From Candidatus Sulfidibacterium hydrothermale (GTDB lineage Bacteria > Bacteroidota > Bacteroidia > Bacteroidales > F082), in NCBI RefSeq assembly GCF_020149915.1, contig NZ_CP083760.1, positions 620,001 to 684,000 of the forward strand: a DNA stretch of 64,000 bases, in the 5' to 3' direction. Below are positions 33,657 through 40,427 of the stretch, piece by piece (positions within the stretch are counted from its first letter, which is position 1; each line of letters begins with the position of its first letter). The notes under the pieces were generated by a model. It did not search any database. It saw nothing but the letters and a program-made list of their open reading frames with translations, and had not been told where the DNA came from. Both the position numbers and the translations under genes were made by a program.

Positions 33657-33730
33657 TAAAATTTTTCTGTGGGTTGTGGTTGTTTTCTGAAACCCTTAAT
33701 TTTACCAAAATTAAACAAATGGGTTGTATG

Positions 33731-34525
33731 ATGGAAAAACAAGTTGATTTTCAAGGAAAAAAGATAAATTATTCCGTAACGGGAACCGGTCTACCGGTAG
33801 TTTTGTTGCATGGATTTTTAGAAAACCTGCATATTTGGGATGACTTGACCGGTTTTTTACAGTCCGGTTTTCAGGTGATTGCTGTCGATTTGCCCGGTTT
33901 TGGGAAAACACCGGTGTTTGCTGAAAATCACACGATGCCGTTTATGGCTGATGCTGTAAAAGCGGTTTTAGAGGCTGAAAAGGTGCAGCAAGCGGTTCTG
34001 GTAGGACACTCTATGGGCGGCTATATTTCGCTGGCTTTTGCCCACCGGTTTCCGGAAATGATGAAAGCACTGGTACTGTTCCATTCGCATGCTGCCGGCG
34101 ATGATGAGCAGGGCAAGCAAAACCGTACACGGACCATTGAAGTGGTAAAAAAAGACCATAAAGATTTTATAGCACAATTTATTCCGTTGCTTTTTGCGGA
34201 AGAAAATGTTTCTAAGTATTCTGCAGAAATCAATCGTTTGCGTGAAGTTTCGCTGGAAACATCCAAGGAGGGTGTGATTGCAGCGATGGCCGGAATGCGC
34301 GACCGGGATGATCATCTGGCTTTGTTAAAAGATGCCGGTTTTCCGGTCTTTTTTGTGGTAGGCAAACAGGACTCCCGTATTCCGACTGAAAAGATAATGA
34401 AACAGCTGGCCTTGCCGGAGCATGCCGAAGCCATTATTCTTGAACACGTTGGCCACATGGGCTTTATTGAAGCGCCGGACAAAATCTTTCCGGCAGTTAA
34501 GGCATTTTTGGAAAGATGCCGGTAA
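33731..34525 (+). CDS. Alpha/beta-fold hydrolase
   Basis: A 264-residue cytosolic hydrolase. LPVVLLHGFLENLHIWDDL carries the oxyanion-hole HG, the nucleophile elbow is VGHSMGGYIS (Ser about residue 100), the acid is likely the aspartate in VVGKQDSRIP and the histidine lies in VGHMGFIEAP. Substrate unknown; sequence style resembles 2-succinyl-6-hydroxy-cyclohexadiene carboxylate synthase-like and ester hydrolases. ATG 33731 was chosen, with upstream ATGs at 33728 and 33719 possible. It diverges from the preceding small hydrolase gene; a 28-nt hairpin repeat follows it. Confidence 0.88.
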   Translation: MEKQVDFQGKKINYSVTGTGLPVVLLHGFLENLHIWDDLTGFLQSGFQVIAVDLPGFGKTPVFAENHTMPFMADAVKAVLEAEKVQQAVLVGHSMGGYISLAFAHRFPEMMKALVLFHSHAAGDDEQGKQNRTRTIEVVKKDHKDFIAQFIPLLFAEENVSKYSAEINRLREVSLETSKEGVIAAMAGMRDRDDHLALLKDAGFPVFFVVGKQDSRIPTEKIMKQLALPEHAEAIILEHVGHMGFIEAPDKIFPAVKAFLERCR

Positions 34526-34688: not shown

Positions 34689-36170
34689 ATGAATTATGCT
34701 CATAGCAAAGTGAAAATTTACAGGCAGAAAATTTCTTTTCTTCCTGATGAAAGCCGGGTGATTACCAAACTCTTTGGCTTAGATAAAGTGCGCATTTATA
34801 AGGTGATAGACCGTGTGCTAAAGCTTTCTGAAAAAGAGAAAGGCCGGATTTTGGAACAAATTATTTCCAATTTTGAAAAAAGGCACAAAAATGTAAAACG
34901 TATTTTTAAGGATAATTTCGATGAGATTATCAAACATCTTGATATTACCATTTACAATGAGCTTTCGTTGGAAAACAAATTGTTGGTAGGGGCTTATTTT
35001 ACGTTGGAATATTCCATTGAGTCGGCTGCTTTGTTCAACCCATCCATTGTACCGCATCCTTTTCAAACACCGGAAGATATGGCTGCACGGCGATTGAAAG
35101 TCATTATCAGTTTTCGTGCTGTCGGCGAAGGGCACATGTCGTCGGTGGTTTTCCGGAGTGGCACGCTGGATGAAACCGGCGATATCGAAATGGATGAGTT
35201 GAGCCACCTGGTGGAAAAAGCCAAAATCATTCATTCGGCGGAGTACAGCAAACAGGATTTTATCATGAAACTGTCGGATATGGGGCAATATGAATGGGTA
35301 AAGTCCATTTTTGATGATTTGCTGGATAACTTTACGGCCGAGGAACTGGAAGAAAGTATTAAACATTTTCGCGAAAAAGGAATCCTTACCCCCAAAGAAG
35401 AACAAGCCATTGATACGCTGTACTGGATTTTACGGTCAAATTACGAGATAGAATTTCATGATGATTCCGATATTTCGGAAAGAGTGATCTTCCCCCGTTC
35501 CACTACCGATATCCGCGCTATAGAAGATGCCCGGTTTGTGGCTTTTAGTGGCGGAAACGGAAAATACACCTATTATGCCCCTTATACGGCTTACAACGGG
35601 ATTACCATACTTCCGCAGTTGATTGAAACCAAAGACTTTTTCCGTTTCAAAATCAGCACTATGACCGGCCCGGGTTCGCAAAATAAAGGAATGGCCCTTT
35701 TCCCGGAAAAGATCAACGGGAAATATGCCATGATTTCGCGCAACGACAACGAAAACCTGTACATCATGTACAGCGACAGCCTGAATTATTGGGAAAATCC
35801 GGTGTTGATTCGTGAACCCAAATTTTTCTGGGAATTTATCCAAATTGGGAACAGCGGTTCTCCCATCAAAACCCCGAAGGGATGGTTATTACTGACCCAT
35901 GGTGTAGGTCCGGTACGTACGTATTCGCTGGGTGCTATTTTGCTGGATTTGAACGATCCGTCAAAAGTGATTGGCGAATTGAAAGACCCGCTGCTGGTAC
36001 CTCGCGAAACCGAACGAAACGGCTATGTCCCGAATGTAGTATATGCCTGTGGCGCCCTGCTGCATAACGAATGGGTAATATTGCCTTATGCGGCTTCTGA
36101 CACCCGTTCCGGAATTGTAAAATTTAAGCTGAATGACTTACTGAATCAGCTCACACCGGTAAAAAACTAA
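34689..36170 (+). CDS. GH130-type glycoside phosphorylase/hydrolase, long form
   Basis: A 493-residue protein. Residues 1-175 are an extension of mainly helices with no recognised family. The rest is a five-bladed GH130-like propeller: VIFPRSTTDIRAIEDARFV holds the catalytic acid (Asp of IEDARF), YTAYNGITILPQLIETKDF follows, then GMALFPEKINGKYAMISRNDNENLYIMYSDSL, and GNSGSPIKTPKGWLLLTHGVG, with the lysine and histidine that bind phosphate in GH130 phosphorylases. GH130 acts on beta-mannosides, including beta-1,2-mannooligosaccharides. Phosphorylase or hydrolase cannot be decided by eye. It converges with the three genes of the GT4 operon. Confidence 0.8.
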   Translation: MNYAHSKVKIYRQKISFLPDESRVITKLFGLDKVRIYKVIDRVLKLSEKEKGRILEQIISNFEKRHKNVKRIFKDNFDEIIKHLDITIYNELSLENKLLVGAYFTLEYSIESAALFNPSIVPHPFQTPEDMAARRLKVIISFRAVGEGHMSSVVFRSGTLDETGDIEMDELSHLVEKAKIIHSAEYSKQDFIMKLSDMGQYEWVKSIFDDLLDNFTAEELEESIKHFREKGILTPKEEQAIDTLYWILRSNYEIEFHDDSDISERVIFPRSTTDIRAIEDARFVAFSGGNGKYTYYAPYTAYNGITILPQLIETKDFFRFKISTMTGPGSQNKGMALFPEKINGKYAMISRNDNENLYIMYSDSLNYWENPVLIREPKFFWEFIQIGNSGSPIKTPKGWLLLTHGVGPVRTYSLGAILLDLNDPSKVIGELKDPLLVPRETERNGYVPNVVYACGALLHNEWVILPYAASDTRSGIVKFKLNDLLNQLTPVKN

Positions 36171-36193
36171 GAAATAGCCGTGACGCCGGGTTT

Positions 36194-37240
36194 TTATTGC
36201 CCTGATGATACCTGTTCCAAAATTTTCCGGTAAACATTTACATAGCCGTCAATCATTTTGTTGATGCTGAAATGACTGAGGGCATGTGAGCGGCAATCGT
36301 TTCTCCGGAGTTGTTTTACCTGGGGCAAAACCGCTACTGCTTCGTGAACGTTTTGCACCAGAAATCCTGTTTTTTCATGTAAAATAAGTTCCGGCATTGA
36401 ACCGCGGTTGAATGCGATCACTGGCGTTCCGCACATCATGGCTTCGGCTACGCTCAGTCCGAATGGTTCTTCAAAACGGATGGGATGGAGCAAAGCATAA
36501 GCCTCGCCAAGCAGCTTATCGCGTTGTTTCGGGCCGGAATTCCCCACGTACACAATCTGTTCTCCGTCAATTTGTGGCTTTACTTTTTCGTTAAAGTATT
36601 TTTCGTCCTGGATGAGTCCGGAAATGATCAGTCGCATTCCGGCCTGACGGGCAATTTCTATCGCTTCTGTTGTTCCCTTTTCGGGATGAATACGTCCAAA
36701 GAAAAGCAGATAGTCGCCATGATTTTCTCTGAAATGAAAATCGTCGGGATAGATGCCGTTGTACACCGTGGCTATATAATCCAGTTCCGGACTGCGGTCG
36801 GAATTGCTGATGGAGACATACCAGCCCGTGGAATTGTATTTTTTGTAAACCGGAATGATCTTGGGAGAAGAGAAACCATGAATGGTGGTGACCATCGGGG
36901 TTTTGATCAGTCGTGAATAGGTCAGCGGAAGAAAATCGTAGTTGTTGTGTAAGATATCAAACTGATCCGCCATTTCCATAAAATGAGAAATGTGCAAGGA
37001 CTCACACACTTTGGCATCCATTTCGGGATGTTCGCCGTAAGGTTTGTCACATACTGCTTCCAGTTTTCCTTTGGTCAGCGAATCGGCTGTGGCAAAAAGG
37101 GTGACATCGTAGCCACGGTTTACCAATCCTTCGGCAATATTGGATGCCACCTGTTCCCACGGGCCGTATTTTCGTGGCGGGGTGCGCCAGCAGGCCGGTG
37201 ATAAAATAGCGATCTTTTTGTTTTTCAGAATATCATCCAT
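36194..37240 (-). CDS. GT4-family glycosyltransferase
   Basis: A 348-residue GT-B enzyme. The N-terminal domain starts KIAILSPACWRTPPRKYGPWEQVASNIAEGL, a GT4 entry with the acceptor-side glycine loop, followed by HNNYDFLPL. The C-terminal domain has FFGRIHPEKGTTEAIEIARQAGM and the donor-site EPFGLSVAEAMMCGTPVIAFNRGSMPEL, which is the E-x7-E motif of retaining GT4 enzymes. The sugar donor is not evident from sequence. It begins one base after the GH130 gene ends (37242), so the two are translationally close and surely one transcript. Confidence 0.88.
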   Translation of the reverse strand: MDDILKNKKIAILSPACWRTPPRKYGPWEQVASNIAEGLVNRGYDVTLFATADSLTKGKLEAVCDKPYGEHPEMDAKVCESLHISHFMEMADQFDILHNNYDFLPLTYSRLIKTPMVTTIHGFSSPKIIPVYKKYNSTGWYVSISNSDRSPELDYIATVYNGIYPDDFHFRENHGDYLLFFGRIHPEKGTTEAIEIARQAGMRLIISGLIQDEKYFNEKVKPQIDGEQIVYVGNSGPKQRDKLLGEAYALLHPIRFEEPFGLSVAEAMMCGTPVIAFNRGSMPELILHEKTGFLVQNVHEAVAVLPQVKQLRRNDCRSHALSHFSINKMIDGYVNVYRKILEQVSSGQ

Positions 37241-37241
37241 A

Positions 37242-38174
37242 TCAGGGAATGGCTTTTCTTGAGTGGGTTAAACACATTTCTACCAAATCGTCAATTCGTG
37301 CGGTTCCGGTACACATCACGGTGTCTGCTCCGCCCCAGTAAAGGCGAATAATACCGTTATCTTCCGGAACGGCAGCGCAGCTGAATACCACATTGTGCAC
37401 GTAACCGGTGATTTCCCACGGATCTTCAGGCTGTAAAATCCAGTCATCGCTTACGCCTATGATTTTGGACGGATCATTTAAATCGTGTAATGCCACGCCC
37501 AGCCGGTAAACACTGCCATCCATCGTAGGGAAAACACCATGATAGATGTTCAGCCAGCCTTTGTCGGTTTTTATGGGAGGCGCTCCCGGACCAATTTTCA
37601 TTTCATCCCAATGGTACGGAACAGGATTCATAATCCGTTTCGATTCGCCCCAATAGCGCAAATCAGGAGAATAGGAAATCCAGATCGACCAGGGGCTGAT
37701 TTCGGAATGAGGCCGGTCGAGACGGGCATATAAACCGTTGAACTTTTCCGGGAAAATGACCACATTGCGATAATCGGCTTCAGTGATCATGGAAAAGCGT
37801 TCCACTTTCTCAAAATCACGGGTTTTGGCCAGCCCTATCCGTATTCCGTGTGGCGAGTAAGCGCTATAAGTAATGATGTATTCCCCGTCAATAAAAGTAA
37901 TTCGAGGATCTTCGATACTCCATGATTCATATTCCTGGTATGGACTTTTGTCTTCCGGAGTCATAAAAGGTTTTTTCCTGACTTTAAAGTCCGTTCCGTT
38001 TTCACTGTCGGCAATGCCGAGGATGCTTCTTCCGTTATGAAGATGTGATCGGAAGATCATCACGTATTTTCCGTTGTGTTTTACCACGGCAGCATTGTGT
38101 ACGGTAGCTACCGGATACGGCACATCCTCTTTCGTCAGGATGGGATTTTTTGCATAGCGGATCACGGGTTTCAT
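37242..38174 (-). CDS. GH130-type beta-mannoside phosphorylase-like protein, short form
   Basis: A 310-residue single-domain GH130 protein. The substrate-side RSHLHNGRSILGIADSENGTDF is followed by YESWSIEDPRITFIDGEYIITYSAYS, in which the Asp of EDPR is the family's proton donor. The segment GLYARLDRPHSEIS supplies an arginine and GPGAPPIKTDKGWLNIYHGV supplies Lys and His; these are the residues that hold phosphate in GH130 phosphorylases, so phosphorolysis is more likely than hydrolysis. The middle gene of a three-gene unit; a phosphorylase next to two GT4 enzymes suggests turnover of a mannoside made by them. Confidence 0.85.
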   Translation of the reverse strand: MKPVIRYAKNPILTKEDVPYPVATVHNAAVVKHNGKYVMIFRSHLHNGRSILGIADSENGTDFKVRKKPFMTPEDKSPYQEYESWSIEDPRITFIDGEYIITYSAYSPHGIRIGLAKTRDFEKVERFSMITEADYRNVVIFPEKFNGLYARLDRPHSEISPWSIWISYSPDLRYWGESKRIMNPVPYHWDEMKIGPGAPPIKTDKGWLNIYHGVFPTMDGSVYRLGVALHDLNDPSKIIGVSDDWILQPEDPWEITGYVHNVVFSCAAVPEDNGIIRLYWGGADTVMCTGTARIDDLVEMCLTHSRKAIP

Positions 38175-38192
38175 GATAAGCTCCTTTCGTGT

Positions 38193-40427
38193 TTATATGG
38201 TTTTTTCTTTTTCAAAAGCTTCTAGTACCGTAAGATGGGATAGCAGATAAGCCAGCATGCTTTCTGCTCCCTGGTTGCGGTTCACGCCCTCTTTTTCCAG
38301 TCCGTCACAACATCCTTTGGTTTCGTAATCAAACAAAGGAATACGCAAATCGTTTTCGCCAAGGAACCACATGTACGAAGTAAACATTCTACGGAGATAA
38401 TCTTTCTTTGTTTCGCTTACCAGGTAAGCTTTTTCGTACATCAGCACCATGGCCATAGCATCAATAGGTTGTTGTGAGAAACGAGCCCTTTCTCCTCCTT
38501 TTTTAAACCAGCCTTCGTTGCCGATGAGAGAGATATGATCGCCTTCGAAAATGGTTTTGTCAAGAAAAGAAAGGCTTTTTTCAGCAATTTGCAGATATTT
38601 TTCCTGTTCGGTTTTTTCGTAAGTGCAAAACAGGGATGCCGGCAGAAGTCCGTTATCGTAAGTAAGAATCGGTTCGAACCATTGCCATTCGGCATCACTT
38701 TCTTTTTCAAAAGCTTTCACCAGTTTATCGGCCATGCCGGCCATGATGTTTACCATGCCTTCATCCCACGGAAACCGTTTCAGATAATAGTTGATCCCCA
38801 TCAATGTGTTGGCAATCCCGCGCAGACTTTGCAAATCGTTGAACTGCTGAATGGAACGGCTGAACAAGTGCTTGGCAATTTGAAAAAAGGCGTCGTTGGG
38901 GGCATGGGCCAATAAAAATCCCAAAGCCCATACGGCCCGGCCAAAAGCATCTTCCGAACCTTTTTTATCCAGATACTGATGGTCGTATCCCATAAAATTA
39001 TGGAAGGAGCCATCTTCGTTTTGCATATAATTGATAAAAGAAAGATAAGTGGACATCAAATCGATGGCTTCCGGTTCTTTTTGCCGTTCGTGTACCATGG
39101 TCATCACCAGCAACGCCCGGGCATTGTCGTCAAGACAATAGCCGTGATGATAGTCCGGAATATTATATTTGGCATGTTGTAAGATGCCGGTGGCATCGGT
39201 CAGTCGTTTTACATGACTCAGGTTGAGTGACGGCAGCAGGGTGGGGTCAATAATTTTTTCATTGTAATTTTTAGGCTTTTGGTGTTTTCTGATGGCTGTT
39301 TCAGCTGTTTTTAGATATTTCTTTCCCTGTAACGGCCAGGTGACTTTTTTACCGTAATTAAAGGCTTTATTCCGGATCTCTTTCATTTTTGCCGGGTTTT
39401 CCAGCAGGTCGATGAGTACATCGGCTAATGCTTCATGGTCGTTGAACGGAAAGAGAACCCCACGACCTTTGTCGAGTAATTCAACCGCATGCCAATAAGG
39501 CGTAGAAACAACGGCTGCTCCGGCTCCCACAGCATACGTCAGGGTGCCGCTGGTAATTTGTGCTTCGTTGGGATAGGGTGTAATGTAAATATCGGTAGCT
39601 GACAAATAGGCACACAGGTCTTTTTCTTCCAAAAAACTGTCGATAAATACGACATGTTTTCCCAGCTTGTTTTTTTGCACCAGCCGTTTCAGAAAATGGC
39701 GGTATTCTTCTCCGGAAACCCTGACTACGCCCGGATGGGTCTTTCCAATAATGAGGTATTCTACCTGCGGGAATTTCTCCACCACGCGGGGCAAAGCCCG
39801 GATAACGGTTTCAATGCCTTTTCCCCGGCTCAGCAGCCCGAAAGTCATAAGAGAAATTTTGTCTTCGAGATGGAACTTTTTCTTGTAATCATCGTGGTTT
39901 TGGTAGTCAAATTCAGGGAATCCATGTTCGATAATGGTGATTTTCCGGCGTGGAATCTGGTAAATTTCTTCCAGGAAATTTACCGCCATTTTACTCATCA
40001 CCACGATCTTATCCGCCTTTTTTCCAATTTCGGTGATGATGGCTTTTTCGCTAAAAGTGGGTTCTTTCAGTACGGTGTGAAAGGTAACCATCAACGGAAC
40101 TTTTAACCGGTTGATGAGTGGCAGGATATAAACGCCGCTGTTCCCGCCGAAAATGCCAAACTCATGTTGCAGAATACAAATATCCGCACTGTAGTTGATA
40201 AAGTCAGCTGCTTTTAAATAGTCTTTCTGGTGGCTTTCGCGGATGCTGTACTTGACAATGTCAGGATAGGCATAAGCTCCGTCTTTATCCGTCATGGCTA
40301 CCACAAAAATGTTGTTTTCCTCTTTTTTTCCGTCAGCTTCATGCGGAATAGACCGGATCAGGTTTTCTGTAAATGTGGCAATTCCGCATTCGCGCGGCGG
40401 ATAGGTTGTTATGACAGCTGCTTTCAT
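38193..40427 (-). CDS. GT4 glycosyltransferase fused to a C-terminal helical-barrel-like domain
   Basis: A 744-residue protein in two parts. Residues 1-375 are a GT4 GT-B enzyme: TYPPRECGIATFTENL, LQHEFGIFGGNSGVYI, FGLLSRGKGIETVIRALP, and TYAVGAGAAVVSTPYWHAVELL with Glu316 as the conserved donor-site glutamate. After a linker, residues about 400-744 form a helical region with repeated W/Y/F and acid motifs (HGYCLDDNARALLVM, GRAVWALGFLL, ARFSQQPIDAMAMVLMYEKAY, NRNQGAESMLAYLL). These resemble (alpha/alpha)6-barrel carbohydrate enzymes, but I cannot name the family. First gene of the unit with GH130 and GT4, 18 bases upstream of GH130. The 5' start at 40427 opens directly with the Rossmann strand. 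Confidence 0.8.
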   Translation of the reverse strand: MKAAVITTYPPRECGIATFTENLIRSIPHEADGKKEENNIFVVAMTDKDGAYAYPDIVKYSIRESHQKDYLKAADFINYSADICILQHEFGIFGGNSGVYILPLINRLKVPLMVTFHTVLKEPTFSEKAIITEIGKKADKIVVMSKMAVNFLEEIYQIPRRKITIIEHGFPEFDYQNHDDYKKKFHLEDKISLMTFGLLSRGKGIETVIRALPRVVEKFPQVEYLIIGKTHPGVVRVSGEEYRHFLKRLVQKNKLGKHVVFIDSFLEEKDLCAYLSATDIYITPYPNEAQITSGTLTYAVGAGAAVVSTPYWHAVELLDKGRGVLFPFNDHEALADVLIDLLENPAKMKEIRNKAFNYGKKVTWPLQGKKYLKTAETAIRKHQKPKNYNEKIIDPTLLPSLNLSHVKRLTDATGILQHAKYNIPDYHHGYCLDDNARALLVMTMVHERQKEPEAIDLMSTYLSFINYMQNEDGSFHNFMGYDHQYLDKKGSEDAFGRAVWALGFLLAHAPNDAFFQIAKHLFSRSIQQFNDLQSLRGIANTLMGINYYLKRFPWDEGMVNIMAGMADKLVKAFEKESDAEWQWFEPILTYDNGLLPASLFCTYEKTEQEKYLQIAEKSLSFLDKTIFEGDHISLIGNEGWFKKGGERARFSQQPIDAMAMVLMYEKAYLVSETKKDYLRRMFTSYMWFLGENDLRIPLFDYETKGCCDGLEKEGVNRNQGAESMLAYLLSHLTVLEAFEKEKTI

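Follow-up and report, generated by a model that had tools for sequence, protein, structure and literature searches.

A GT4-barrel/GH130 gene module that recurs across bacterial phyla and may serve an internal mannoside cycle

The nearest described system found is a cluster of Thermoanaerobacter sp. X-514 (Teth514_1785-1796), which combines two GH130 beta-1,2-mannoside phosphorylases with a GT4 glycosyltransferase and ManC and has been read as a route of guanosine diphosphate (GDP)-mannose salvage; it also contains an ATP-binding cassette (ABC) transporter and a GH5 protein, and the available sections of its description do not mention a GT4-barrel fusion (PMC4264767). A second parallel is the mannogen of Leishmania, where enzymes with a GH130-like fold (GT108) make and break a mannan in one cell. 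That system (PMC8950772) is eukaryotic, and its beta-1,2 chain is proven, whereas such a chain would be putative for the module considered here. This module lies in a window of 64,000 nucleotides from Candidatus Sulfidibacterium hydrothermale (NZ_CP083760.1, positions 620,001 to 684,000) and comprises two GH130 genes, GH130-L and GH130-S, and two GT4 genes, GT4-g and GT4-f, the last fused to a helical barrel. All four open reading frames were confirmed at the positions and in the families assigned by a first-pass annotation of the letters. Searches of openly licensed papers turned up no GT4-barrel/GH130 module in any title or abstract.

The pairing of GT4-f with GH130 recurs across several bacterial phyla. 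A GH130 gene lies within 1.5 kb of GT4-f in 98 of 122 distinct relatives of at least 700 residues (55/72, 21/27, 7/8 and 15/15 in four subsets), as detected with a profile built from 14 proteins at an E-value of 1e-10; this count omits GT4-f reading frames below 700 residues and near-identical copies, leaving 15 of the 23 plasmid loci, and, like the residue and neighbour counts below, it tallies relatives and not independent events. The paired records span Bacteroidota, Ignavibacteriota, Fusobacteriota, Deinococcota and Pseudomonadota, and on the GT4-GH130 linkage the first-pass annotation is supported by this recurrence. Within the phylum, 395 genomes were sampled, that of the host among them; 74 encode GT4-f (E-value limit 1e-50) and 56 encode GH130-L (limit 1e-40). 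With the own genome excluded, both genes are found in 46 genomes, GH130-L alone in 9 and GT4-f alone in 27, leaving perhaps 312 with neither, as the total of 395 appears to count the own genome. GH130 partners were classed as long (at least 405 residues), short (below 335) or, as a third type, mid-length (335-404). Partners of the GH130-L type are convergent to GT4-f in 24 of 48 cases and on the same strand in the other 24; partners of other types share its strand in 50/50. In a quick GT4-f tree the window copy groups with rows of the same genus, and transfers between phyla are unsettled by that tree.

The sugar handled by the module is suggested by its plasmid-borne relatives. Seventeen of the 28 plasmid records with GT4-f are typed conjugative; 23 of the 28 were fetched (H3, H6, H12, H20 and H28 were left out), and these loci are partly near-copies of each other. 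They carry GH130-L-type genes in 21 cases, and in 12 of the 23 a gene of GDP-mannose supply (ManC, mannose-6-phosphate isomerase or phosphomannomutase) stands directly beside the pair, which makes mannose the likely sugar, as had been supposed from the window alone. Individually, ManC adjoins the pair or is one gene off in 6/23, the isomerase lies beside it in 9/23 (with two more within 7 kb), the mutase in 3/23 and an AGE-family protein in 2/23. The fullest array, in Sphingobium and Sphingomonas, consists of ManC, isomerase, GT4-f, GH130-L and phosphomannomutase. All four window families stand in one row on an Ilyobacter (Fusobacteriota) plasmid typed conjugative, and on a Deinococcus plasmid GT4-f and GT4-g occur together with a relative of GH130-S. 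No mannose-supply genes were found inside the window; they are located elsewhere in the host genome, where PF20511 (mannose-6-phosphate isomerase) is matched and PF01238, a model restricted to the C-terminal portion of this enzyme, is not.

Both GH130 proteins exceed the Pfam family cut-off, and no signal sequence was seen by eye in either. In sequence, GH130-S has its closest matches in TM1225 (1vkd) and in 9fj8, a 1,2-beta-oligomannan phosphorylase. It possesses the catalytic aspartate and the full basic-residue set of solved phosphorylases, with D89, R136, R154, K193 and H212 kept in 12/12 aligned sequences; the first-pass annotation had noted a lysine and a histidine linked to phosphorolysis. 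By the numbering of the B. fragilis enzyme, the basic residues are presumably phosphate ligands; three basic residues are mentioned in PMC4599007. GH130-S may carry out phosphorolysis of a beta-mannoside. In printed alignments it is like the beta-1,2 enzymes at E88-D89 and like 1vkd and Uhgb_MP at R136-N137, and because of these mixed signatures its linkage is not readable from sequence.

Compared with its nearest solved relatives, Teth514_1788/1789 (9fj8, 7fip) and Uhgb_MS (9eqq, 9erg, 9erh), GH130-L carries additional sequence, both N-terminally and as an insertion in its interior. It keeps E279-D280, K333, R351 and H404, sharing the lysine of these relatives at K333, but Q385 replaces the Lys or Arg that they and every other phosphorylase aligned have at this position. 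Glutamine occupies the position in 85 of 89 long GH130 proteins collected (Lys in 3, Arg in 1), whereas the remaining checked positions are kept in 89/89, the first as Lys in place of Arg. Owing to this glutamine GH130-L does not have the full phosphorylase residue set and is at most a candidate phosphorylase. In the mid-length partners adjoining GT4-f, the position of Q385 holds Tyr or His in 21 of 23. Assignment of GH130-L as a beta-1,2-mannosidase of the BT3780 type was rejected for want of the Glu pair: neither GH130-L nor GH130-S has Glu at the aligned basic positions, which by their spacing probably correspond to Glu227 and Glu268 of the BT3780 type.

GT4-f consists of a GT4 family domain, with a predicted GT-B fold, followed by the barrel. 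The E-x7-E motif is typical of GT4 retaining glycosyltransferases. In GT4-f, aligned to MshA, the second Glu of this motif is replaced by Tyr298 in 124 of 126 sequences, Glu288 is present in 61/126 and Arg201 is kept in only 51/126. The barrel was compared with 7tem (a putative exported protein), cellobiose 2-epimerases and the GH76 alpha-mannanase BT2949, all of which stand alone without a GT4 fusion, and a sequence-profile match was obtained for 7tem only. Identification of the domain as an AGE epimerase is unsupported by profile, although the predicted fold is alike. A homologue is an exported Bacteroidota family (hhalign 99.8%, E 2.8e-30, 330 columns), and because this homologue recurs in degradative mannoside loci, the barrel is probably tied to mannoside chemistry. 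At one locus (L071:5532-7874) GT4-f is naturally divided into separate glycosyltransferase and barrel genes, which adjoin GH130-L.

GT4-g is closest not to a mannosyltransferase but to the uridine diphosphate (UDP)-glucose:sucrose alpha-1,2-glucosyltransferase TeGSS (7fg9, 7fga), its nearest solved sequence relative. The E-x7-E motif is intact (E258 and E266 in 14/14 aligned), and Y25 and R183, aligned with 7fg9, are kept in 14/14; an active-site Tyr and Arg of glucosylsucrose synthase are named in the available part of PMC9909042, which also states that TeGSS products increase under salt and heat stress. The TeGSS gene adjoins sucrose-phosphate synthase, whereas the present host genome gave no match to the sucrose-6-phosphate phosphatase family, and glucosylsucrose was rejected on this ground as an obvious product. 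A scan of about 150 loci revealed GT4-g in 31. Short GH130 proteins with the R-N signature have it nearby in 16/16 cases, and those with a K-D signature lack it in 20/21. A Sphingomonas parapaucimobilis plasmid operon (L113:5300-9005) comprises a GH130 gene, a GH13-type protein, for which all NCBIfam matches lie below cut-off, and a GT4-g relative, an arrangement which might indicate that GT4-g produces an alpha-glucoside.

A cytoplasmic module for building and later dismantling a mannose-containing oligo- or polysaccharide could accommodate these features. We give this reading a probability of roughly 0.45; substrates, linkages, reaction direction and the storage or protective role are all inferred from the genes. 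GT4 enzymes are retaining family-wide. Retention is also given for GT4 phosphorylases in the available part of PMC8950772. The proposal in the first-pass annotation that the GT4 enzymes make the beta-mannoside was rejected on this family chemistry, and since GT4 enzymes should form alpha bonds, the beta-mannoside step is assigned to GH130. An alpha-linked core bearing beta-mannosyl units would reconcile retaining GT4 with inverting GH130 enzymes, which exchange beta-mannosyl units with alpha-mannose-1-phosphate, and Uhgb_MS is listed with just such an alpha-core/beta-mannosyl product from alpha-1,2-mannobiose. In the proposed cycle, GDP-mannose from the cell's ManC, isomerase and mutase would feed GT4-f, which would attach alpha-mannosyl units to a primer, and GT4-g would contribute a further sugar in alpha linkage, possibly glucose donated by UDP-glucose. 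Exchange of beta-mannosyl units between the chain and alpha-mannose-1-phosphate would fall to GH130-S, perhaps together with GH130-L, and stored mannose could thereby be regained as mannose-1-phosphate without a kinase step, while the barrel of GT4-f may cut, trim or remodel the same chain. A bolder version, which we consider improbable, would be an equivalent of mannogen in bacteria, in which a mobile module of wide distribution makes an internal mannan-like chain through a non-canonical GT4 fused to a chain-editing barrel, with GH130 enzymes shuttling beta-mannosyl units into and out of the chain and GH130-L turned from phosphorylase to synthase or transferase. The Leishmania parallel drawn by the first-pass annotation is an analogy, in which a beta-1,2 linkage would be putative for the present module.

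The strongest competitor, although still unlikely, is salvage, in which imported mannosides would be degraded, GH130 enzymes would yield mannose-1-phosphate for GDP-mannose and the GT4 enzymes would reuse the sugar elsewhere; GDP-mannose supply by this route has been proposed for Thermoanaerobacter (available part of PMC4264767). In the Bacteroidota loci retrieved around either GH130-L or GT4-f, recurrent neighbours include two ABC permease families (11 and 10 loci), a solute-binding protein (10) and a GH2 protein (9), with extensive though incomplete overlap between the sets of loci (Pfam was run on examples, and permeases were named by eye). The best support for salvage is the exported homologue of the GT4-f barrel, found in 11 of these loci, 4 of which also contain GT4-f (L041, L066, L067 and L088). 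This exported (alpha/alpha)6-type protein passes no Pfam cut-off and is a candidate uncharacterised glycanase family. However, recurrence of these import families does not extend to most other GT4-f/GH130 pairs, the operons that run from ManC and isomerase through GT4-f and GH130 to the mutase resemble supply for synthesis, and the surroundings of the window locus showed neither an importer nor an exported hydrolase. The earlier claim of a substrate both produced and consumed within the cell is upheld as regards the absence of a transporter at the locus, but in view of the dozen or so related import-and-degrade clusters it is one reading among others. Less probable again is a compatible-solute or stress pathway centred on GT4-g, whose glucosyl or mannosyl oligosaccharide would be recycled by GH130. 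The likeness of GT4-g to TeGSS, with its stress-responsive products, the operon that a GT4-g relative shares with GH130 and GH13-type proteins, and chaperone genes (GroEL, Hsp20 or DnaK) beside six sphingomonad plasmid copies are consistent with it, but those six copies are among the many GT4-f/GH130 pairs that lack GT4-g, and the missing sucrose phosphatase family again argues against it. The GT4 family is common in lipopolysaccharide and capsule pathways, and the two GT4 genes show weak NCBIfam similarity to exopolysaccharide GT4, as might be expected if they synthesised a surface glycan whose precursors the GH130 neighbours recycled or edited. We regard this as very unlikely: no listed NCBIfam model reaches cut-off, and flippase, polymerase and initiating transferase were not seen by eye among the 28 most recurrent neighbour families.

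The internal mannoside cycle thus ranks highest, and the first-pass interpretation is partly supported, yet several observations weigh against it. About a dozen related loci, those with importer genes, look catabolic. Of the 122 GT4-f relatives, 24 have no GH130 gene within 1.5 kb, although four of them have one at 1.6-7.2 kb; the unpaired include one genus without GH130 in the fetched stretches (L133-L136, L145). The case for mannose derives from plasmids of Pseudomonadota, of which several are closely related to each other; 9 of the 23 plasmid loci show none of ManC, isomerase and phosphomannomutase, and no such genes were found near the fetched Bacteroidota loci by blastp with three Sphingobium queries at 1e-8, a search that remote versions could escape. 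The donor of GT4-f is not readable from canonical GT4 enzymes because its motif residues are altered, and the usual Lys/Arg is missing, by alignment, from GH130-L and most mid-length partners. Finally, the host genome encodes a member of the GT35 phosphorylase family, so that a glycogen-type reserve may already be present. If the cycle does exist, it would add a make-and-recycle carbohydrate system beside glycogen and Leishmania mannogen, and an internal mannose reserve or protectant could help to explain GH130 genes outside mannan-degradation loci. Carriers include named cultured strains of Pedobacter, Hufsiella, Sphingobium and Ilyobacter.

The three minus-strand genes of the window are separated by 18 and 1 base pairs, and GH130-L is convergent to this trio (Table 1). 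By Pfam profile, the two GH130 genes are the only ones in the host genome (3.27 Mb, single contig).

Table 1. Genes of the module in the window, with their closest profile and structure matches
Gene	Position	Strand	Length	Matches and architecture
GH130-L	34689..36170	+	493 aa	Pfam PF04041 7.2e-30; best PDB phmmer match 9fj8 1.5e-35
GT4-g	36194..37240	-	348 aa	PDB 7fg9 5.8e-76, next family 1.6e-26
GH130-S	37242..38174	-	310 aa	Pfam 2.9e-55; PDB 1vkd 4.2e-59, 9fj8 2.8e-51
GT4-f	38193..40427	-	744 aa	GT4 domain ~1-385 fused to (alpha/alpha)6-barrel ~390-744

GH130-L is directly preceded by a codirectional alpha/beta hydrolase gene (33674-34525), whose relatives adjoin the module in L032, L033 and L034, all of the same genus. 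The import clusters (L083, L066, L081, L086, L094 and others) contain an ABC transporter, GH130-L, a GH130-S-like gene, mostly GH2 and the exported (alpha/alpha)6-type protein. Many pairs of GT4-f with a mid-length GH130, mostly from one genus (L155-L177), adjoin what appears by eye to be an MCE/permease lipid-transport set. Among plasmid copies, GT4-f, GH130-L and an AGE-family epimerase/isomerase are consecutive in Rhizobium (L110:5986-10791 and L121:5986-10788), and in Sphingomonas sanxanigenens (L104:14968-30893) GT4-f and two GH130-L-like genes lie beside several pentose-phosphate genes. The chaperone-linked sphingomonad copies are L100, L111, L114, L115, L119 and L122, which adjoin GroEL, DnaK/GrpE or Hsp20 genes.

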